This document shows positions 8,359-25,380 of a stretch of DNA of 64,000 nucleotides, piece after piece. The stretch lies in the NCBI GenBank assembly GCA_027080505.1, contig JALWRX010000112.1, positions 1 to 64,000 on the forward strand. Direction: 5' to 3'. The notes under the pieces were generated by a model. It worked only from the letters and a program-made list of their open reading frames with translations, did no database searches and was not told the DNA's origin. The stretch is from Ghiorsea sp. (GTDB lineage Bacteria > Pseudomonadota > Zetaproteobacteria > Mariprofundales > Mariprofundaceae). Numbering within the stretch: the stretch's first letter is position 1; each line of letters begins with the position of its first letter. The position numbers were made by a program, and so were the translations under genes.

Positions 8359-8577
8359 ATGATGGTCATACGCCGAAAAGTTGGGCAGTCCATACGTATC
8401 AACGATGATATACGTCTTGTCATACTTGATATTCAAGATGGGCATATTATCCGCTTTGGTATTGAAGCTCCCGAAGATATAGCAGTCCATAGGTTAGAAA
8501 TTTATGAGCAAATCCAACAAGAAAACAAGGCAGCCATAGCAGGTGATGCACTAGCTTGGCTCAAGCAAGGTGAATAA
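8359..8577 (+). CDS. csrA: carbon storage regulator CsrA
   Basis: IRRKVGQSIRINDDIRLVILDIQDGHIIRFGIEAPEDIAVHRLEIYEQIQQEN. Confidence 0.96.
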   Translation: MMVIRRKVGQSIRINDDIRLVILDIQDGHIIRFGIEAPEDIAVHRLEIYEQIQQENKAAIAGDALAWLKQGE

Positions 8578-8578
8578 T

Positions 8579-9016
8579 ATGACAGCAATCACTTCTCCCC
8601 TTCAACCTACTGCTCAACCCTCCACCATACGTGAGTTTTCATTTCCTAGGGGGTTAGCGGGATTCCCTGATGCATCTCGTTTTGCTTTTATTTATGAAGG
8701 CAAAGGTAATATGCTTTGTATGCAATCTTTAGAGTATGAAGAAGCATCCTTTATTGTAACCCCTTGGGATACCACCCGCTTGGGTGAACCGCCAGCATTA
8801 AGCAAAGAACAGCGCACCTGCCTTAAACTTGATCAAGGCGACCATATCATGTGGATGCTCGTGCTTAACCCCTTTGCTGATAAAACTTGGGTTACCGCCA
8901 ACCTCAAAGCACCCATTGCTATCAATGAAAAGCAACTCATGGGTTTACAGTGCATTCGTAACGATGCTGATTTAGAGCTTCGCTACCCTTGGATGGAACA
9001 ACCTAGCCTTACGTAG
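8579..9016 (+). CDS. fliW: flagellar assembly factor FliW
   Basis: FPRGLAGFPDASRFAFIY... WVTANLKAPIAINEKQLMGLQ; overlaps the end of csrA. Confidence 0.9.
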   Translation: MTAITSPLQPTAQPSTIREFSFPRGLAGFPDASRFAFIYEGKGNMLCMQSLEYEEASFIVTPWDTTRLGEPPALSKEQRTCLKLDQGDHIMWMLVLNPFADKTWVTANLKAPIAINEKQLMGLQCIRNDADLELRYPWMEQPSLT

Positions 9017-9596
9017 ACCTTGCATGAAACTGCAAACTTATATGCCCGTTATCCACCGTTAAGCGGCTCCAGCAAGCATAAGGCATAGACAAGTGTCTTG
9101 TGCTTACAATGGGTGCTTGTAAAGCATGGGCAATCAACATACGAATCGAGCCCGAATGCGCTACCAGCAACACATGACCTTGCTCATACTCTTGAATCAA
9201 ATGATGCAAGAAAACTTGTGTGCGCTTGGCAAAGTCTAACATGGATTCACCATTGGGCGGTGTCATTTGTGTGGGGTCTTGTCGCCATGCTTGCAACATA
9301 CCTGGGTATGCGTATTCAATCTGTTCTGCTGTCATCCCTTCCCAATCACCATAAGATAATTCTTGAATCGCAGGCTCAACCACACAAGAGATACCTGCTT
9401 GTGCCGCCCAAGATGTTGCAGGCTCAGCACAACGAGACAATGGTGAGCAGATAATCGTATCCACCTCATCTCGCAACTGTTGCCACACATCATCCATAGC
9501 TTTTCGCCCTGCTTGCGTTAAAGCCTCATCCAAAGCTCCCCTGTATTTTACCCCTCCTTGCAAGGCTCCATGGCGCAATAAATCAATGGTTAACAT
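9009..9596 (-). CDS. histidine phosphatase superfamily protein (alpha-ribazole phosphatase-like)
   Basis: LLRHGALQGG, SPLSRC, ELSYGDWEGM, VAHSGSIRML motifs; start at ATG 9596 preferred over track 9719. Confidence 0.82.
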   Translation of the reverse strand: MLTIDLLRHGALQGGVKYRGALDEALTQAGRKAMDDVWQQLRDEVDTIICSPLSRCAEPATSWAAQAGISCVVEPAIQELSYGDWEGMTAEQIEYAYPGMLQAWRQDPTQMTPPNGESMLDFAKRTQVFLHHLIQEYEQGHVLLVAHSGSIRMLIAHALQAPIVSTRHLSMPYACWSRLTVDNGHISLQFHARST

Positions 9597-9692: not shown

Positions 9693-9708
9693 TGGCAGTA
9701 TATTTGCT
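9693..9708 (+). promoter_or_regulatory. putative sigma-54 promoter upstream of the ExeA-like ATPase
   Basis: TGGCAGTATATTTGCT: TGGCA and TTGCT elements with consensus GG-N10-GC spacing. Confidence 0.6.
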
Positions 9709-9773
9709 TGATTATGCAATGTTCGTGTATGTTAGCCCGTGCTAAAGCATGATGTTTTGCAAAGGAGTTGGAT

Positions 9774-10574
9774 ATGTATCTTGAACATTGGAAGCTGAAT
9801 GATTTTCCATTCGACAATGTTCCATCGTCACATTTTTATTATGAGACCGATGAACACCGCACCCTTTGTGAAGACCTTTATGATGCCATCATACGCCGAC
9901 GTGGAGCCATTGTATTTACAGGTGAAATTGGCTGCGGGAAAACCACATCTACCCAACGTGTTCTCCTTGATTTGCCTCAAGAACGCTTTGATATTGCTTT
10001 AATCAACTACTCAAGTCTGTCTCCCATAGAAATGTTGTTTGAAATCAGTCAACAACTGGGTTTGGGTATTGTTGAAAAAGATAAAAATATTCTTTTAACA
10101 GCCCTTAGAGAACACCTCACCAAAAATGCTGCCGAAGATCGCGACACTTTAATTTGCATTGATGAAGCCCAAAGCATTCCTGACATCACTACTTTGGAAG
10201 AGCTTCGTTTACTGCTTAACTTTCAACTTGGCGACCGTTTTTTAGTCACACTTTTGCTTGTAGGCCAACCTGAATTACAAGAAAAAATTGCGCAAATTCC
10301 ACAATTACAACAACGTGTCGCACTCAACTTACATGTGGGTAAATTAGGTATTCAAAACACTTTAAATTATGTGTTGCACCGATTACGCGTTGCAGGCTGT
10401 GAACGTCCTATTTTAACCAAACAAGCCATCATGCTTATTCATCAACATACGGGTGGTGTACCAAGAAGAATAAACCATTTGATGGATAGGTGCTTACTTG
10501 TTGGACAACGCAACTCATCATCTTTGATTGACAGTAAACTGGTGCAAGCCACCATGCAAAGGTACCCAGGCTAA
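9774..10574 (+). CDS. ExeA/GspA-type AAA ATPase
   Basis: YLEHWKLNDFPFDN start; Walker A GEIGCGKTT; Walker B DTLICIDEAQ; GGVPRRINHLMDRCLL. Confidence 0.88.
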   Translation: MYLEHWKLNDFPFDNVPSSHFYYETDEHRTLCEDLYDAIIRRRGAIVFTGEIGCGKTTSTQRVLLDLPQERFDIALINYSSLSPIEMLFEISQQLGLGIVEKDKNILLTALREHLTKNAAEDRDTLICIDEAQSIPDITTLEELRLLLNFQLGDRFLVTLLLVGQPELQEKIAQIPQLQQRVALNLHVGKLGIQNTLNYVLHRLRVAGCERPILTKQAIMLIHQHTGGVPRRINHLMDRCLLVGQRNSSSLIDSKLVQATMQRYPG

Positions 10575-11818
10575 TGACAAAATATTTTGATTTATTACGC
10601 GCACACCAACAACATAAAGAACATGTTACGACTGATGATAGCATTGAAGTAACAGAGACTGAAAGTCCGAGCAACCAACATAACCCTTATGTCCAACAGG
10701 GCGAAAGTCATGATTCCATATTAGAACCTGAGGTGACAATAGAGCTTCTTGATGAGGAAACTTTACCTGAAGATGAACAAACCATCCAAGCACAAGAACT
10801 TAGTATTGATGCCTTGCCAACTGAAGCAGAAACTACGCAAGAACCTATACAAGAAGAACCAGCAGTAGAAAGTTCTCCAACAAACAAGCACGGTTTTTCA
10901 GTTGCAGCTTGGTTGCAAACAATTAGCCAATCGTTACAAATAATTTTTCAAGCTGCCGAGAAGCAAGAGGCAACGGATGTAAGCATTTTAGATGCCCCGC
11001 TACAAACTCTGATGGAGCAACTTGAAGACAACACCAAGGTTTTGGATGCTTTAGAGCTAGAAATCAGCCGTAATATTAAACAAATATGTAATGCTGACTG
11101 CAGCGTAAATGACTTGGTTGAGAAGTCTATTATGATGATGCTTTATACCATCAAAATTAGCTTACGCTTACAACTACAGCACCATGCCATTGTGGAGCAT
11201 GCTACTGCTGCCATGTTACATCACATTGGTATGGCTATGGTGCCTACCGAAGTCCGTCATAAGGCTGGCAAACTTACCAAAGATGAACTTGCTTTGATTC
11301 GCCAAGCCCCTGAAAATGCTGTAAAATACCTAAAATCATGCCATGTCACACATGAAAGTATTTTACTTGCTGCTGAGCAAGCTGCTGAACGTTATGATGG
11401 CAGTGGTCCACTGGGGCTAACAGGGCATGACATTGCTTGGATTGCTCGTGTTGTTGGATTATTATCCATGTTTGAAGCCTTGATTCATATCCGCCCTTAC
11501 CGTCAGCGTTTATTGCCTCGCGATGCTATTCGTGAGCTGGTCAACCGACATAAAAAAGCCTTTGACCCCATATTACTCAAAGCATTGATTGAAGCTGTAT
11601 CACTATACCCTGTTGGAACTTTCGTACAATTAAACACAGGAGAAATTGGTCAGGTTATCATGGTGCATAGTAAATTCCCGTTGCGCCCTGTCGTTTACAT
11701 CAATATGGATAGCCATGGTAACCCTATCACGGCTAGAGAAATTGACTTAAAACAACAACCCAACCTAATGATTCAGAAATGCATGTATGAAGAGTCATTA
11801 GGGAGCGATGATTCTTAA
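10574..11818 (+). CDS. degenerate HD-GYP-like domain protein
   Basis: KAGKLTKDELALI...AERYDGSGPLGLTGHDIAWIARVVGLLSMFEALIHIRPYR aligns to HD-GYP landmarks but catalytic residues are altered. Confidence 0.78.
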   Translation: MTKYFDLLRAHQQHKEHVTTDDSIEVTETESPSNQHNPYVQQGESHDSILEPEVTIELLDEETLPEDEQTIQAQELSIDALPTEAETTQEPIQEEPAVESSPTNKHGFSVAAWLQTISQSLQIIFQAAEKQEATDVSILDAPLQTLMEQLEDNTKVLDALELEISRNIKQICNADCSVNDLVEKSIMMMLYTIKISLRLQLQHHAIVEHATAAMLHHIGMAMVPTEVRHKAGKLTKDELALIRQAPENAVKYLKSCHVTHESILLAAEQAAERYDGSGPLGLTGHDIAWIARVVGLLSMFEALIHIRPYRQRLLPRDAIRELVNRHKKAFDPILLKALIEAVSLYPVGTFVQLNTGEIGQVIMVHSKFPLRPVVYINMDSHGNPITAREIDLKQQPNLMIQKCMYEESLGSDDS

Positions 11819-11824
11819 ATAAAG

Positions 11825-12901
11825 ATGGGCAATAAAATCACAAAAAAGGAGCTTGAGAAAGCCCTTGATACTTATGCCAATCTGGTTGAAATGTACCCTG
11901 ACAATGAGTCTTATTTAAAGCGGTACGCCAAAATGTTACAAACCTTAGGACGTGAAGCAACAGCAACCATCACCCTACAACATTTGCATGATATTATTGC
12001 CAAACGCTCCCCCAAAGAGGCCAAAGAATTTGCAAAGCAATACCCACAAATCGGTCGCATCTTACTGGATGACACTGCCTTTGAAGATCATGATAAACAT
12101 GCCATTGCAGGAAAAATCATTTATGAATTAACCAATAAACTATGGTTAAAGCTTCATCAAAAAACACTCAAAGAAGGGCAAGCTGTATGCCATGCTGAAG
12201 ATTTAAGCGACACCCTTACCCTAATTGTTGAAGGTAATGCAGATGCATTTGCCATCAATACCCAAGGTACACGTATTCTCGTAGAGCATGTGAGTGAGAT
12301 GGATATTTTAGGTGAACATACCTATTTTAAACCCAACACTATGGACATTGATGTTTTTGTATCTTCGGAAACTGCGAAAGTAGTCGAAATTCCAAGGAAA
12401 AAAGTTTTAGCTATGATTGCTGGCAACCCACATCTAGAAAAAATGCTCAAACAACGTGCTATTTTTCGCACCCATGTACATGCTCTTGCTCGTAATGATG
12501 TGTTTCAAACCATGCCTTTAAAGCTCACCAAATATCTTGCAAGAAAACTTACCGTCCGCCATTTTAAAGCTAACACACTGATTTACGATTTAAAAAAGCC
12601 TGTGCATGGTATTGACATCGTTATCAAAGGTCATGTTTGTTACTTGGCGCATAATCGAAATAAAGAAAAAGTGATGTTATCACCGCTTCCACCTTTATCT
12701 ATCGCAGGTGACACGTCACTGCGTGGTGGTGAAACGACAAGCATGGCAGAGCTAGCCGCCAAAACAGATGTATCACTCGCACATATCGCCTTTGATGACT
12801 TATTAAATGTTAGTGTGGCTTACCCCCCTCTCAAAGAAAAGCTTATGCAACATGCTGACCAACAAAAAATTAAGATGATGCAAGAAATTTCTAAGTTATA
12901 A
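11825..12901 (+). CDS. protein with N-terminal TPR-like helices and two divergent cyclic-nucleotide-binding-like domains
   Basis: TLTLIVEGNADAFAINTQGTRILVEHVSEMDILGEHTYF cNMP-binding fold signature; similar layout to the next ORF. Confidence 0.7.
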   Translation: MGNKITKKELEKALDTYANLVEMYPDNESYLKRYAKMLQTLGREATATITLQHLHDIIAKRSPKEAKEFAKQYPQIGRILLDDTAFEDHDKHAIAGKIIYELTNKLWLKLHQKTLKEGQAVCHAEDLSDTLTLIVEGNADAFAINTQGTRILVEHVSEMDILGEHTYFKPNTMDIDVFVSSETAKVVEIPRKKVLAMIAGNPHLEKMLKQRAIFRTHVHALARNDVFQTMPLKLTKYLARKLTVRHFKANTLIYDLKKPVHGIDIVIKGHVCYLAHNRNKEKVMLSPLPPLSIAGDTSLRGGETTSMAELAAKTDVSLAHIAFDDLLNVSVAYPPLKEKLMQHADQQKIKMMQEISKL

Positions 12902-12913
12902 CGTAATGTTACA

Positions 12914-13993
12914 ATGACAAAGCTTCATGATGATACCAAAAGTGCATTTCAACATTGTGCTGCCATGTACAAGCAACTTTACTCTATCTACCCTAAAGAA
13001 CATAAGTATTTACAGCACCAAATTGAATCTCTCATTCAACTTGGGGAACATGATGCTGCTGAACTCTTGCTTGAACAACTCAAAGCTTTATTACAAAGCA
13101 ATCACAGCATAAATGCAGCGCAACAAGTCGAAAGTATTCGGCAATACGTTAATCAAACAAAACATGTTCAACAGTATTACACCACCCCATTTTTGCACCT
13201 TGCATCACAAAGCTTATTACAATCATTTTTAAGCCAGCATACGCGCATACAGTGTAAGGAAGGACAGTATTTGATGCGCTATGGTGATACTGACCAACAA
13301 ATGTATATTGTATTATCTGGAGAGCTTGCAGTTTGGAGCAGAGATACATCAGGCAAAAAGCATTTTGAACATACTTTACGTGCAGGTGAAATCATTGGCG
13401 AACTTGCTTTCCTTGATAATACACCACGCAATGCAGATATCCTTGCCTGTTGCGATTGTCAATTGTTGGCAATCCCTGCCCAAGCTGTGTATAAGTTATT
13501 TGCAAAAGACCCAAAAATTGAATCCACACTTCGGCAAGAAGCTGAAACCCGTAAAATACAAGTTGCTATGAAGTGTAATACTGCTTTTGCCAAGCTTCCC
13601 CAACATTTACAGCGCATACTCGCCAAAGAGGCTTGCTTTCAATACAACCAGCCCTTAGAACGGATTTATGGTAGTGGTGAAGCTATTCAATATATTGACC
13701 TTATTTGCACGGGAAAGGTTAACTTTATCAGCGAACACAGCGATGGTAGCAGCTTAATGTTGCATGTTTTAAAAACGGGAGATTTACTTGGCTGCTCTGC
13801 TGCTATCCCACAAATGAACCCAAGCTATAGTGCTGATGTCGTAAGCATGGGTACGCTAACCCGTATTCAGTTTCCTCTAGATTGTATCAAAAAGGTTTGT
13901 GACTTAAATGCACGCTTCTATCAATCCATTCTACAGCAAGCGAAAACAGAGCGCGATAATCTATTGCGTCACTTAATAAGAACAAATCAGTAA
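12914..13993 (+). CDS. TPR-like plus cyclic-nucleotide-binding domain protein
   Basis: QQMYIVLSGELAVWSRDTSGKKHFEHTLRAGEIIGELAFLDNTPRNADILA cNMP domain with GE...R cassette. Confidence 0.85.
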   Translation: MTKLHDDTKSAFQHCAAMYKQLYSIYPKEHKYLQHQIESLIQLGEHDAAELLLEQLKALLQSNHSINAAQQVESIRQYVNQTKHVQQYYTTPFLHLASQSLLQSFLSQHTRIQCKEGQYLMRYGDTDQQMYIVLSGELAVWSRDTSGKKHFEHTLRAGEIIGELAFLDNTPRNADILACCDCQLLAIPAQAVYKLFAKDPKIESTLRQEAETRKIQVAMKCNTAFAKLPQHLQRILAKEACFQYNQPLERIYGSGEAIQYIDLICTGKVNFISEHSDGSSLMLHVLKTGDLLGCSAAIPQMNPSYSADVVSMGTLTRIQFPLDCIKKVCDLNARFYQSILQQAKTERDNLLRHLIRTNQ

Positions 13994-14006: not shown

Positions 14007-14035
14007 AAAGGCACTGTAAAAAATACAGTGCCTTT
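14007..14035. terminator. bidirectional-type hairpin between convergent genes
   Basis: Perfect 12-bp stem AAAGGCACTGTA / TACAGTGCCTTT, 5-nt A loop, flanked by A-rich and T sequence. Confidence 0.8.
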
Positions 14036-15129: not shown

Positions 15130-16440
15130 TCAATGGTCTTGCCAAATATTTTTCAATAATATCGAACAGGTATCATCACCATCAATCGCCTTACTATTTT
15201 TCATAAGGTTTAAAGTTTCTTTGACTTGTGCTTGTTTTAACTGCTGTACTGTTTGCTGTAATGCAGGGCATTTCTTAAAATATGTACGATAATTCTGTTC
15301 ACCCAAGTGCATCAATACAGTATCAGATACCGCACGCACCGTTGCTGTACGCTTACCATTGGTCAGTATGGATATTTCACCAACCACACCACCTGTTTCC
15401 ACAGTTTTTACCAGTGTTTCGCAACCTTGGACATCAATTGTTACAGCGAGCTTACCTCTACGCACAATATATAAGCCTATACTCGTTTCATTTTCCTTGA
15501 ATAACGTATCCCCAGCTTGCAGGTTGGTCATTGTCATCTTACACGCAATATCATCTCGTACTTGTGCATCCACGTTGGCAAACACTGTGGTTAAAGCAAG
15601 CTGCTTCACCAAAATACGGCTCTTATATTTTTCTTCTATTTTTTGTTTGAACGAAGAAAAATCTTCTTGGAATTTATCCAATAGGGTATAGGGCAGTTCA
15701 AACACCTCTGTTTCACCTTTAGCTACAATTTCTGCTGTACGCCGACCACCTGTAAAATATGCAGTTTCACCACAAATATCATCTTCACCTATATCGCCAA
15801 GATAGGTGCGTTTGCCTTGAAGCGTTAAATAACCAGACAACTTTCCACTAATCACAATAAACATGGTTTGCGCATGGTCTCCCATTTTACTTAACACTTC
15901 TTTATCTTTCAATTTACGATAACGCAAACCTTGCAAAAGTGCATTGAAATTGGATTTATCAAAAGATTGAAATAGTTGGCTAGAAACCAGTCTATGCCCC
16001 GCCCTATCTTCATCACTCAAACCATGCAGTAATGACTCTGTTGCTAAGTATTCATCACCACACAACTTGTAAATACGATAGGGGTTCGTCACATCATCGG
16101 GTTTTAATTGGGTGTATCGGCGTAATGCAGCAATGGCTTTGGATGGATAATGCTTCGCAAAATCATTTGCAGCTTGTAAAAACCAACGTGCTGCCGACGC
16201 CTTATCATCGGCTTTTTGATAAGCTTGTGCTGCTTGTAGTGCAATATTTGGGTTTTCTTCACCCAATATCATTGCCAATGCTGCATAACGATGTGCAGCT
16301 TCAGTGAACTTTTGCTGTTTGATGTATTTTTGTGCCGTTTTTAAAAAGACTTGTACAGCTTTATCTTGTAATGATGTCACACCAAAATCTTTAAGCTCTT
16401 CCATCAATACTTTTTCCAAAGCCTTTGCTTGCTGCATCAT
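15130..16440 (-). CDS. TPR-like plus tandem cyclic-nucleotide-binding domain protein
   Basis: Two cNMP cassettes: DICGETAYFTGGRRTAEIVA and GVVGEISILTNGKRTATVRA; N-terminal helical repeats. Confidence 0.88.
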   Translation of the reverse strand: MMQQAKALEKVLMEELKDFGVTSLQDKAVQVFLKTAQKYIKQQKFTEAAHRYAALAMILGEENPNIALQAAQAYQKADDKASAARWFLQAANDFAKHYPSKAIAALRRYTQLKPDDVTNPYRIYKLCGDEYLATESLLHGLSDEDRAGHRLVSSQLFQSFDKSNFNALLQGLRYRKLKDKEVLSKMGDHAQTMFIVISGKLSGYLTLQGKRTYLGDIGEDDICGETAYFTGGRRTAEIVAKGETEVFELPYTLLDKFQEDFSSFKQKIEEKYKSRILVKQLALTTVFANVDAQVRDDIACKMTMTNLQAGDTLFKENETSIGLYIVRRGKLAVTIDVQGCETLVKTVETGGVVGEISILTNGKRTATVRAVSDTVLMHLGEQNYRTYFKKCPALQQTVQQLKQAQVKETLNLMKNSKAIDGDDTCSILLKNIWQDH

Positions 16441-21632: not shown

Positions 21633-22751
21633 ATGAGCACAACTGACATCACATCACTAAAACCCGATTTGTCGCACCTCAAAGGTGTGCGTGTGATTGC
21701 TGCGATGTCTGGTGGTGTGGATTCTTCAGTGGTTGCTGCACTGCTTAAAGAAGCGGGTGCTGATGTGATTGGTGTATTCTTGCATGTTTGGGATTACAAC
21801 CGTGATGAAGTTTCTGGTCATGGTTCATGTTGCTCATTGGATGATGCCTATGATGCACGCCGTGTTTGCGACCAAATCGGCATCCCATTTTACAATATGG
21901 ATATGCGTGAAAACTTTAGGGAAAACGTAATCAACCCATTTATTGAAGATTATGAAACAGGGCGCACCCCCAACCCTTGCGAGCGTTGTAATCGTTTTGT
22001 GAAATTTGGCGCATTGCTCAATGCCGCAGATGAGTTAGAAGCCGAATATGTAGCAACAGGGCATTATGTACAACGCAATGATGATGCAGAAGGTGTACAC
22101 ATCTATCGTGGTAACGACCAAATCAAAGACCAAAGCTATTTTTTAGCTACCACCAACAAAGACCAAGTCGCTCGTATCTTGTTCCCTGTGGGTCATTTGC
22201 AAAAAGATGGTACGCGCATTTTAGCCCGCCATTATAATTTGATGACGGCTGAAAAACACGAGTCGCAAGATATTTGTTTTATCCCTGCAGGAAATCGCAT
22301 TGCTTTCCTTAAAAAAGAAGGTGCTGAAGCTGGTTTTAGGGCTGGTGATATTATGGATAGAGAAGGTAATATCCTTGGTCGTCACCAAGGCATTGCGCAC
22401 TACACATTGGGGCAACGTAAAGGTTTGGGGCTTCCCAATGGTCCTTGGCATGTTGTCGAACTCGATGGTGCAACTGCACGTGTGATTGTTGCCCCTCCAG
22501 AAGATGCACTGATTCGTGAAGTTCATGTCTCAGGAACGACTTGGTTACGTGATATTAAAGCAGATGAAAATGTATTATCCAAAGTACGTTATCAAATGCA
22601 TCCTTCTGCGTGCAAGATTCAAATTGATGGTAGCAATACCATACTTACTTTTGATGAACTACAACGCCCCACTGCCCCAGGTCAAGTTGCCGCCTTTTAT
22701 GTGGATGATGAATTGGTCGGCGGCGGTATTGTTTCAGCCATTATCCGGTAG
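21633..22751 (+). CDS. mnmA: tRNA-specific 2-thiouridylase MnmA
   Basis: AAMSGGVDSSVVAALLKEAGADVIGVF; TPNPCERCNRFVKFG; GQRKGLGLPN. Confidence 0.96.
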   Translation: MSTTDITSLKPDLSHLKGVRVIAAMSGGVDSSVVAALLKEAGADVIGVFLHVWDYNRDEVSGHGSCCSLDDAYDARRVCDQIGIPFYNMDMRENFRENVINPFIEDYETGRTPNPCERCNRFVKFGALLNAADELEAEYVATGHYVQRNDDAEGVHIYRGNDQIKDQSYFLATTNKDQVARILFPVGHLQKDGTRILARHYNLMTAEKHESQDICFIPAGNRIAFLKKEGAEAGFRAGDIMDREGNILGRHQGIAHYTLGQRKGLGLPNGPWHVVELDGATARVIVAPPEDALIREVHVSGTTWLRDIKADENVLSKVRYQMHPSACKIQIDGSNTILTFDELQRPTAPGQVAAFYVDDELVGGGIVSAIIR

Positions 22752-25269
22752 CTTCACTCTCCACAGCATTTTTAAGACAACGCAGTAACGCCCTGCGCAT
22801 AGTGCCACCTGTTTGATAGCGTTTATCAGGTTCTTTTTGCAATGCCTTATTGATGATGCTCTTAACGCATGTTGGCAAGTCTTGGCGAACCTCCAAAATA
22901 TCTGGGTGTTTATCATTCACAATTTTATAAGAAATCGCAGCCAAGGAGTCGCCTTGGAAAGGTTTTACGCCCGTTAGCAACACATACATAGTAACACCCA
23001 ATGAAAAAATATCTGAGCGGGAATCTACAGGTTGCCCATTCATTTGCTCTGGCGACATAAATGATGGTGTACCCAAAATCATTCCCGTTTTGGTGCGTCC
23101 TGATGAAGCAATACGCGCAATACCGAAGTCGGTGACTTTGACTGTACCACTTTCTTCATGATACATAATATTCGCAGGTTTAATATCTCTATGCACAATT
23201 TCTTTTTTGCCTGCATAATCCAAGGCATCGGCAATTTTAGCTATAATATTGAGCACCACTGGTACGGGCAAAAGCGTGTTCTTTTGCGCAAAATCACTCA
23301 ACGGTTTACCCTCAATATATTCCATAGCGATATAAGCTAGGTCATGGTCTTCTGCGGCATCATAAATGGTGACAATATTCGGATGATTTAAACGCCCTGC
23401 TGCGCTGGCTTCATGGAAAAAGCGTTGTTCCACCTCTTTGACTTCAGTGCTTTCAAACTCTTCTGCCAGTGCCAATGTTTTCACAGCAACCACACGATCA
23501 ATCTTGGGGTCTCTACCAAGATAAACCGCACCCATAGCCCCTTTACCCAATTCTCTTTCCAAAACAAACCTACCCAACATAGGTTTTTCATCACCTTGAC
23601 TTAATAACGAAGTAATCGTACTAAACTGCCCTGTCCCCATACTTGAAGCATGCTGCATTTTCTCAGCCGTAATCATGCGTTTGGCTACATCTTTAAAATC
23701 AGGCTGGTGCTGTAAAATATATTGATACACCGCAGCGGTGTTATTGAACTTACGTTTTCGCTCAAAATCTAATGCCAGATTATATAATAAGTTCAAACTA
23801 TCTTTGGTGATAGGAAGTTTTTGAAAACGTTCAAAAGCTTGTTCTAATTTGCCTTTTTCTTGCAACATCAAACCAAGCTGCTTGTTGACTTGCGCCATTT
23901 CTTGGGTTTGCTTATGGTATATAATTTGTACAACTTTTCTCGTCAGTAACAACGATGCACCAACAAATAAGAGCAACATATTGATTCCACCATACAACCA
24001 CACCTGCTGACCAAGAAGCATATATACTTCACCTGCAAGCAACAGCACCAATAAAAATAGACTTAACAAAACACCTGTCATCAAACGTAATTTTGGCAAG
24101 GCAAAGGTTAAATATAACAGAAGTAATACAAACACAGCCAATACCACCCATACCATATCGGGTGACTGCGCATAAACATCTTGGTTGATTAGACTGGTTA
24201 CCGTGTGTGCCATCAACTCAGCAGGCCCTGTCAGCTCACCAATTGGCGTGTAAATAGCTTGAAATTGGTCTGGCGCATCCAGTATCACCATTTTACCGCG
24301 AAGCTGTTTAGCAGCATCTCCTGACATCAACTGTTGATATGTATAATGTTGGAAAACTGAACTGTTATCATCCAAAGCAGTATAAAAATGGGGTAAAATA
24401 CGCTGCGTGTCATCAAGACGAATACGTTTGTTGGCTAATGTTACATACTGCATAGGTGAAAATACAATATCTTTAGCACGTAAATTCATCATCTCAGCAG
24501 ACAATAATAAAGGTAAACTTGCCACCCATGTTTGAGCATAGTTTTTTGTCAGTTGCACACTACGCACCCGCCCATCAGTAGCATCATACCAAGTCGATAA
24601 ATAACCTAAGCCATACGCACCCTTAGCCAGCTGCTGCAATGGGAATGCATCAGCGTAAACCGCCCCCCTTTCATAACGCTGCGGCATAAACCAAGTCATA
24701 TGATTCGCATTTTGTTGCTTCTGGGCATATAAGACCGATGATTTCAAGAAATCAGGCAACTTAGCCAATGGTTTCGCAATGTAGAAAGGTAGGTAAATAT
24801 GTTTTGCCCTTTGAATTTCTTTGGCTAAAAGGCTATCAATATCTAAATCATCACGCGCCATATTCACTAAACTGGTTAATGCTTGAATATCAGACTTAGG
24901 TTTTTTCATACCCTGCAAATAAGCTTCGATATTATCCAAATAACTGAGACTAGAATCAGCTTCACGCTTATCAAGTGGTATCAAAATTGAAATACTTTTA
25001 CTTTTGGCCTCACGCACTACCGCCAATACATTGGCAATAGCTTGCTTAAGCCGCAAATCGCTATCTTGCTGACTAAGATCATCAGCATCAATACTGACCA
25101 ACACAATATCCTCTGCATGACTGGGGTTTTTATGTACCAATTGTATGCTATGGTCATAAATGAACTGGTTTATTTGTGGAATAGGAGAAAGGTGCAGCCA
25201 CTGCATAACTAACAACAAAGTAGCCAACAACCCAATCCAAAATGTATTTTTCTTTAATAGAATACCCAT
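22741..25269 (-). CDS. CHASE2-type sensor Ser/Thr protein kinase
   Basis: N-terminal TM plus CHASE2-like region, second TM block, C-terminal kinase: RVVAVKTL, HRDIKPANIM, DFGIARI, GTPSFMSPEQ. Confidence 0.88.
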   Translation of the reverse strand: MGILLKKNTFWIGLLATLLLVMQWLHLSPIPQINQFIYDHSIQLVHKNPSHAEDIVLVSIDADDLSQQDSDLRLKQAIANVLAVVREAKSKSISILIPLDKREADSSLSYLDNIEAYLQGMKKPKSDIQALTSLVNMARDDLDIDSLLAKEIQRAKHIYLPFYIAKPLAKLPDFLKSSVLYAQKQQNANHMTWFMPQRYERGAVYADAFPLQQLAKGAYGLGYLSTWYDATDGRVRSVQLTKNYAQTWVASLPLLLSAEMMNLRAKDIVFSPMQYVTLANKRIRLDDTQRILPHFYTALDDNSSVFQHYTYQQLMSGDAAKQLRGKMVILDAPDQFQAIYTPIGELTGPAELMAHTVTSLINQDVYAQSPDMVWVVLAVFVLLLLYLTFALPKLRLMTGVLLSLFLLVLLLAGEVYMLLGQQVWLYGGINMLLLFVGASLLLTRKVVQIIYHKQTQEMAQVNKQLGLMLQEKGKLEQAFERFQKLPITKDSLNLLYNLALDFERKRKFNNTAAVYQYILQHQPDFKDVAKRMITAEKMQHASSMGTGQFSTITSLLSQGDEKPMLGRFVLERELGKGAMGAVYLGRDPKIDRVVAVKTLALAEEFESTEVKEVEQRFFHEASAAGRLNHPNIVTIYDAAEDHDLAYIAMEYIEGKPLSDFAQKNTLLPVPVVLNIIAKIADALDYAGKKEIVHRDIKPANIMYHEESGTVKVTDFGIARIASSGRTKTGMILGTPSFMSPEQMNGQPVDSRSDIFSLGVTMYVLLTGVKPFQGDSLAAISYKIVNDKHPDILEVRQDLPTCVKSIINKALQKEPDKRYQTGGTMRRALLRCLKNAVESEATG

Positions 25270-25380
25270 GAACTCCTCAACAGCCGAGACCGTAAACAAT
25301 CATATCAATGATTCCGCAAGCTGCATCACAATTTAAGGTAGTTCCTTTAAGCTCTAAAGGCAATCATTAACCCGTACAAA

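Follow-up and report, generated by a model that had tools for sequence, protein, structure and literature searches.

Comparison of zetaproteobacterial genomes points to a control module for polysaccharide export which, in Ghiorsea, is found close to flagellar genes. The stretch analysed here (the window) comprises the opening 64 kb of contig C112 in the 2.03-Mb, 88%-complete genome of a Ghiorsea-type zetaproteobacterium, a marine iron oxidiser, and contains a cluster of four co-directional genes, here called A to D, encoding an ATPase (A), a pseudo-HD-GYP protein (B) and two proteins with cyclic-nucleotide-binding domains (CNBDs; C and D). A and B are rather probably the core of a module that controls exopolysaccharide (EPS) export through Wza/Wzc/Wzy-type machinery, and the four-gene cluster as a whole is probably an undescribed switch that aids the choice between swimming and matrix production.

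Class-wide searches covered 78 zetaproteobacterial genomes, many of them metagenome-assembled genomes (MAGs) and mutually related, and presence and absence were compiled by hand from these searches under stated thresholds. A and Wza were found together in 37 genomes, A alone in none, Wza alone in two (G074 and G075) and neither in 39, and the same distribution was obtained for B and Wza (37/0/2/39 for both, B only, Wza only and neither). For A and FlgI, the corresponding counts were 30, 7, 23 and 18, by which the flagellum was rejected as the primary partner. The first-pass annotation had proposed a non-transcriptional control module for surface machinery with a flagellar target; a module remains likely, whereas the target shifts to EPS on these counts. 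Two near-complete genomes, G031 (98%) and G068 (95%), have A-B and Wza, and FlgI was not found in them. In the Mariprofundus-like genus g11, FlgI was present in 19 of 23 genomes and no A, B or Wza was found.

Gene order was then compared between genera. A lies head-to-head with an EPS export operon in six genera other than Ghiorsea. In five of these (g4, g9, g13, g14 and g18), the genes that diverge from A code for a Wza-like protein (FG-GAP, OmpA, Poly_export and SLBB domains), a Wzc-like protein (Wzz/GNVR and AAA_31), a Wzy_C-like protein and, in most cases, an AMIN-amidase; for the sixth, g8, the arrangement was taken from match coordinates. Domain calls were made on one locus (L102) and checked on two others (L103 and L109), the remaining loci being assigned from similarity and the lengths of their genes. 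The EPS operon of Ghiorsea has no linkage to A: it lies among housekeeping genes on another contig (C34 in the window's own genome, G000), and despite this all 15 Ghiorsea genomes with A also have Wza. Among the genera compared, flagellar genes beside the unit and a sigma-54 site before it are seen in Ghiorsea only. As far as sequence comparison goes, the tie of A-B to EPS export is well supported. Neighbourhood conservation, proposed earlier as a check on the four families, does not join all of them in a single set: A-B form the core, C is frequent but independent, and D is restricted to Ghiorsea.

The pairing is not confined to Zetaproteobacteria. Adjacent A and B genes recur in Brocadiaceae, Scalindua, other planctomycete MAGs and bacterium Dive96. 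Wza/Wzc genes lie alongside the pair in a planctomycete (L159), a member of the Syntrophaceae (L160) and a deltaproteobacterium (L161), and the planctomycete Wza shows the same FG-GAP/OmpA/Poly_export/SLBB architecture. A broad scan of Pseudomonadota with a B profile returned mostly other HD-GYPs and one clear new B-A-Wza locus (L303 in genome G078, from another family of the phylum), in which A-B is head-to-head with Wza-Wzc-Wzy.

Gene A (9774-10574, + strand) encodes a 266-amino-acid cytosolic AAA+ ATPase related to ExeA and TIGR03015. AAA_22 (4e-22) was the only domain above the Pfam cut-off, and in the alignment both Walker motifs (A, GEIGCGKTT; B, ICIDEAQ) are intact. The structural model (predicted local distance difference test, pLDDT, 93) gave ORC/Cdc6, TnsC and MuB as top fold matches, and a sequence search of the PDB with A gave no match. 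By fold and Walker motifs, A can be placed among AAA+ ATPases of the TnsC/MuB/ORC-like fold and reads as a complete enzyme of this kind. Family models found neither a membrane segment nor a peptidoglycan-binding segment, and all residues were modelled as a soluble AAA+ fold, in agreement with the first description of A as an ExeA-type ATPase with no obvious peptidoglycan-binding tail.

The ATPase family was also seen in other company. In Geomonas (L165), the start of an A-like ATPase gene coincides with the stop of a CheA-like gene; a CheW-domain gene comes next and a DUF4388/receiver protein is encoded close by, so that the same family has a different signalling partner there. At a further locus (L304, genome G335), a long ExeA-like ATPase (532 amino acids) lies side by side with a gene that begins MSYILDALKKQQ and looks ExeB-like by eye, and with a convergently oriented HD-GYP gene with intact HD/HHE/GYP.

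Gene B (10574-11818, + strand) encodes a 414-amino-acid protein with a Pfam HD_5 match (2e-23). According to the model, a disordered N-terminus (residues 1-105) is followed by a helical/HD-GYP region (about 106-345) and a conserved C-terminal beta domain (about 346-405). None of the 36 distinct B domains compared from Zetaproteobacteria has the HD aspartate (35 histidines and one threonine instead), the motif-III histidine (0/36) or either histidine of HH (0/36); in the alignment, the late aspartate is replaced and the tyrosine of GYP deleted. Neither the metal ligands nor the GYP motif of catalytic HD-GYP phosphodiesterases are thus present. Judged by these residues, B is catalytically dead and cannot be a standard metal-dependent phosphodiesterase, and its initial assignment as a degenerate HD-GYP held. 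Seven substrate-facing residues, E272, R273, G276, G278, E301, R307 and R310, are invariant in all 36 domains.

Structural prediction, proposed earlier as a check of the assignments, recovered the HD-GYP fold of B by model and fold search as well as the AAA+ fold of A. Among the best fold matches of B was DvhD with c-di-GMP (cyclic di-GMP) bound to its HD-GYP domain, and B agrees with a pseudo-HD-GYP receptor in having the fold while lacking the catalytic centre. DvhD of Desulfovibrio vulgaris uses its HD-GYP domain as a c-di-GMP receptor (PMC13090378). Seven of its contact positions were mapped onto B by hand via the alignment, with Y523 left unmapped: three are identical (R650 to R307, Y652 to Y309 and L577 to L234) and one is similar (M646 to L303). 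Binding of c-di-GMP by B is plausible but uncertain, as only part of the DvhD contacts is conserved.

Relatives of B outside the class form a gradient of decay. HH is lost from the planctomycete copies, in which HD and the motif-III histidine persist, and the Syntrophaceae copy retains all aligned ligands. In five Rhodoferax/Curvibacter-like loci (L211, L220, L222, L223 and L228), an HD-GYP with intact metal ligands and a missing GYP tyrosine (DGSGP) is encoded about 1.1-1.4 kb beyond an A-like ATPase, which is possibly the catalytic form of the A-B pairing.

Gene C (11825-12901, + strand; helical N-terminus) and its distant relative gene D (12914-13993, + strand) each encode two CNBDs, recognised by Pfam as cNMP_binding stretches. 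The earlier label as cyclic-nucleotide-binding proteins without a DNA-binding domain stands, as family models found no such domain in either, but the TPR label is weak, with E of about 0.05-0.1 for C and no match for D. The first CNBD of D has a canonical phosphate-binding cassette, GELAFLDNTPRNAD, with equivalents in all D orthologues examined, and can plausibly bind cAMP or cGMP, whose cassette pattern (GE...PRxA) is present there and absent from Ghiorsea C. Both CNBDs of Ghiorsea C have lost the phosphate-binding arginine, the first retaining GE without PR; C proteins adjoining A-B in most other genera have an intact cassette (GEACFLNPGxRxA). Outside the genus, the best matches of D are other CNBD proteins at about 30% identity, and from the identity values D is not a simple duplicate of C. 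D is absent from G021, G022 and G025, and C from G026. Class III cyclases were found in every Ghiorsea genome, with 4-7 matches each.

Other CNBD proteins were noted in passing. A third two-CNBD protein with a longer helical N-terminus is encoded in the window at 15130-16440 (- strand), and both of its cassettes (GETAYFTGGRRTAE and GEISILTNGKRTAT) look intact. In g11, probably Mariprofundus, genomes that have neither A nor B nor Wza keep a C-like CNBD protein (L116 and L117); in L116, a Band_7 protein is encoded close to it.

The cluster is preceded by a predicted sigma-54 promoter of the -24/-12 type, TGGCAGTATATTTGCT (9693-9708, + strand), an exact sequence present once in the whole assembly. 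When one mismatch was allowed, the sigma-54 pattern occurred 20 times across the window against 21.7 expected, which is chance level, so the reality of the site rests on conservation. TGGCA-N6-TTGCT, with a variable spacer, is kept at -55 to -81 in 10 of 13 distinct Ghiorsea regions upstream of A, and the well-matched site of the first-pass annotation is confirmed by this; the other three regions, one of them from the flagellum-less G031, have a single substitution in the GG or GC core. Across the window's own genome, the pattern was counted 37 times against three for a reversed control, and sites also lie upstream of flgB (45 nt) and fliQ, both confirmed by NCBIfam. As rpoN was detected in 76 of the 78 genomes, the two marks of a sigma-54-dependent operon, a -24/-12 site and rpoN in the genome, are both found. 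No comparable site was found within 300 nt upstream of A in the other zetaproteobacterial genera. In Ghiorsea, no consistent site was found close upstream of Wza, so A and Wza seem to be without a common promoter type. Sigma-54 control of A, as predicted from these sites, is a Ghiorsea trait common to A and flagellar genes, and it is in timing, rather than in the choice of target, that the flagellar link of the first-pass annotation has substance. G031 (98% complete; locus L105) has a degenerate site (TAGCA) and C in two pieces (9965-11046), which possibly reflects decay or an assembly error.

From gene order, conservation, co-occurrence, ligand loss and fold we infer a mechanism in which B would be a receptor or adaptor that acts as the switch of its effector A, with c-di-GMP or a protein partner as the most likely input. 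A would be a cytosolic TnsC/MuB/ExeA-type ATPase that forms rings or filaments and would act at the inner-membrane side of the exporter (Wzc/Wzy), allowing or blocking export. In Ghiorsea, the unit would have been relocated beside flagellar genes, gaining a sigma-54 promoter that resembles that of flgB, and would have acquired D and with it a cAMP-type (cAMP/cGMP) input; EPS output might thereby be coupled to the decision between swimming and settling. The most far-reaching form of this proposal is a cross-phylum EPS switch in which a decayed c-di-GMP phosphodiesterase serves as receptor and drives the TnsC/MuB-like A on Wzc/Wzy, with Ghiorsea adding flagellar-type sigma-54 control and a cAMP input so that two second messengers are integrated; taken as a whole, it is tentative and rather doubtful. 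Several observations weigh against a role in EPS control. Fisher's P for A and Wza (6e-20) overstates independence, the genomes being related and many of them MAGs; family f2 has A and B on separate contigs; three A-B pairs outside the class (L156, L157 and L158) have no Wza or Wzc within the fetched flank; and the DvhD contact Y621 falls in a gap of B, with K582 and E668 not conserved.

Alternatively, A might be an assembly factor for the Wza/OmpA channel, as ExeA is for the ExeD secretin, with B as a structural adaptor that senses no signal. The resemblance of A to the ExeA/TIGR03015 family, its genomic pairing with Wza and the OmpA domain of the Wza-like protein, which suggests peptidoglycan anchoring, are in line with such a function. 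However, a soluble 266-residue ATPase without a transmembrane or peptidoglycan-binding segment fits it poorly, as does the signalling fold of B with its strictly kept substrate-facing residues, and we regard this alternative as unlikely. A nucleotide-responsive module for the flagellum or a pilus, with the adjoining flagellar operon as its target, is improbable: although in flagellated Ghiorsea flgI is usually found some 6 kb from the unit within one contig, both A and flgB are preceded by sigma-54 sites, ExeA relatives help in secretin and pilus assembly, and the flagellum-less G031 shows the degenerate site and split C, 23 FlgI-bearing genomes are without A and B, G031 and G068 keep A-B without FlgI, and the neighbours in other genera are EPS genes, not flagellar ones.

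An XrtA/PEP-CTERM exosortase system, with its TIGR03015 ATPase and sigma-54 control via PrsK/PrsR, also combines a sigma-54 motif with EPS loci (PMC1569441), and TIGR03015 was the best NCBIfam match of A (7e-55). It is very improbable here, since A reached 186.2 bits against a curated cut-off of 324.5, an exosortase above cut-off was found in only four of the 78 genomes and in no Ghiorsea, and the sigma-54 site precedes the ATPase and not PEP-CTERM genes. That A is a leftover MuB/TnsC-type transposition ATPase is hardly credible despite TnsC and MuB among its best structural matches, as no transposase was recognised in the neighbourhoods examined and A is conserved along with B and the EPS operon. 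Control of EPS export by A-B is the reading we retain.

Within the window, the four genes are as tightly packed as first described. A starts with an ATG 6 nt 3' of AGGAG, an alternative TTG start at 9768 being too near to it; the ATG of B begins at the final base of the TAA stop of A, and gaps of 6 nt (B-C) and 12 nt (C-D) follow. An inverted repeat with flanking A- and T-runs at 14007-14035 resembles a terminator and, read from the sequence, probably ends the unit. The cluster had been placed directly after the flagellar operon, which proved incorrect: csrA and fliW (8359-9016, + strand), the usual FliW-CsrA flagellar control pair, stand directly 3' of flgL, with csrA read at about 8359-8577, and a histidine-phosphatase gene on the opposite strand (9009-9596) also intervenes. 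Further downstream, 22741-25299 (- strand) encodes an 852-amino-acid protein that, by reading alone, is a candidate CHASE2-type sensor with a serine/threonine kinase domain. An identity of the cluster as anti-phage defence was discarded, PADLOC having given only cross-matches to cNMP domains and weak ones to AAA.

EPS-linked ExeA-like ATPases have been catalogued in genomes, and little is known of their function. In the present loci, which come from at least three phyla, such an ATPase has as its partner an HD-GYP protein whose catalytic centre has decayed to differing degrees, and EPS exporter genes of one type lie alongside; this pairing provides a specific, testable partner and target for the ATPase. 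The rearrangement in Ghiorsea further shows how an EPS control unit may be rewired from its exporter to a sigma-54 promoter of flagellar type. Related kinds are already known, namely TIGR03015 ATPases in EPS loci and HD-GYP receptors. No account of an AAA+/pseudo-HD-GYP pair with a link to EPS export turned up in the literature searches, which is not proof of absence, and the first-pass view of an undescribed system is apparently right within the literature searched.

Among characterised proteins, the catalytic HD-GYP phosphodiesterases PmGH (4mcw) and PA4781 (4r8z) share the fold and overall motif layout of B, but zetaproteobacterial B has the HD aspartate, motif-III histidine, both HH histidines and the late aspartate replaced. 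DvhD resembles B in its HD-GYP fold, substituted HD motif and biofilm-related control (PMC13090378). However, the receptor DvhD is located in the membrane and its target is a protease, whereas B is predicted to be soluble with a C-terminal beta domain and lacks the GYP tyrosine and several DvhD contacts. The sfz stalk-formation cluster is a zetaproteobacterial EPS locus with a proposed c-di-GMP link, reported absent from stalk-less Ghiorsea (PMC8250860); it was rejected as the EPS partner of A-B, as its genes differ (BcsB-like, glycosyltransferase) and Ghiorsea has the present EPS operon without sfz. A shares the AAA_22-type family over its whole length with the TIGR03015 XrtA-associated ATPase, ExeA/GspA and MshM. 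It differs from ExeA/GspA, which have a C-terminal membrane and peptidoglycan-binding region, in having no such tail, and it falls below the cut-off of TIGR03015, a family named for EPS/exosortase loci. Finally, the exosortase of XrtA/PEP-CTERM systems is nearly absent from Zetaproteobacteria, and the ATPase is found here paired with a pseudo-HD-GYP protein.

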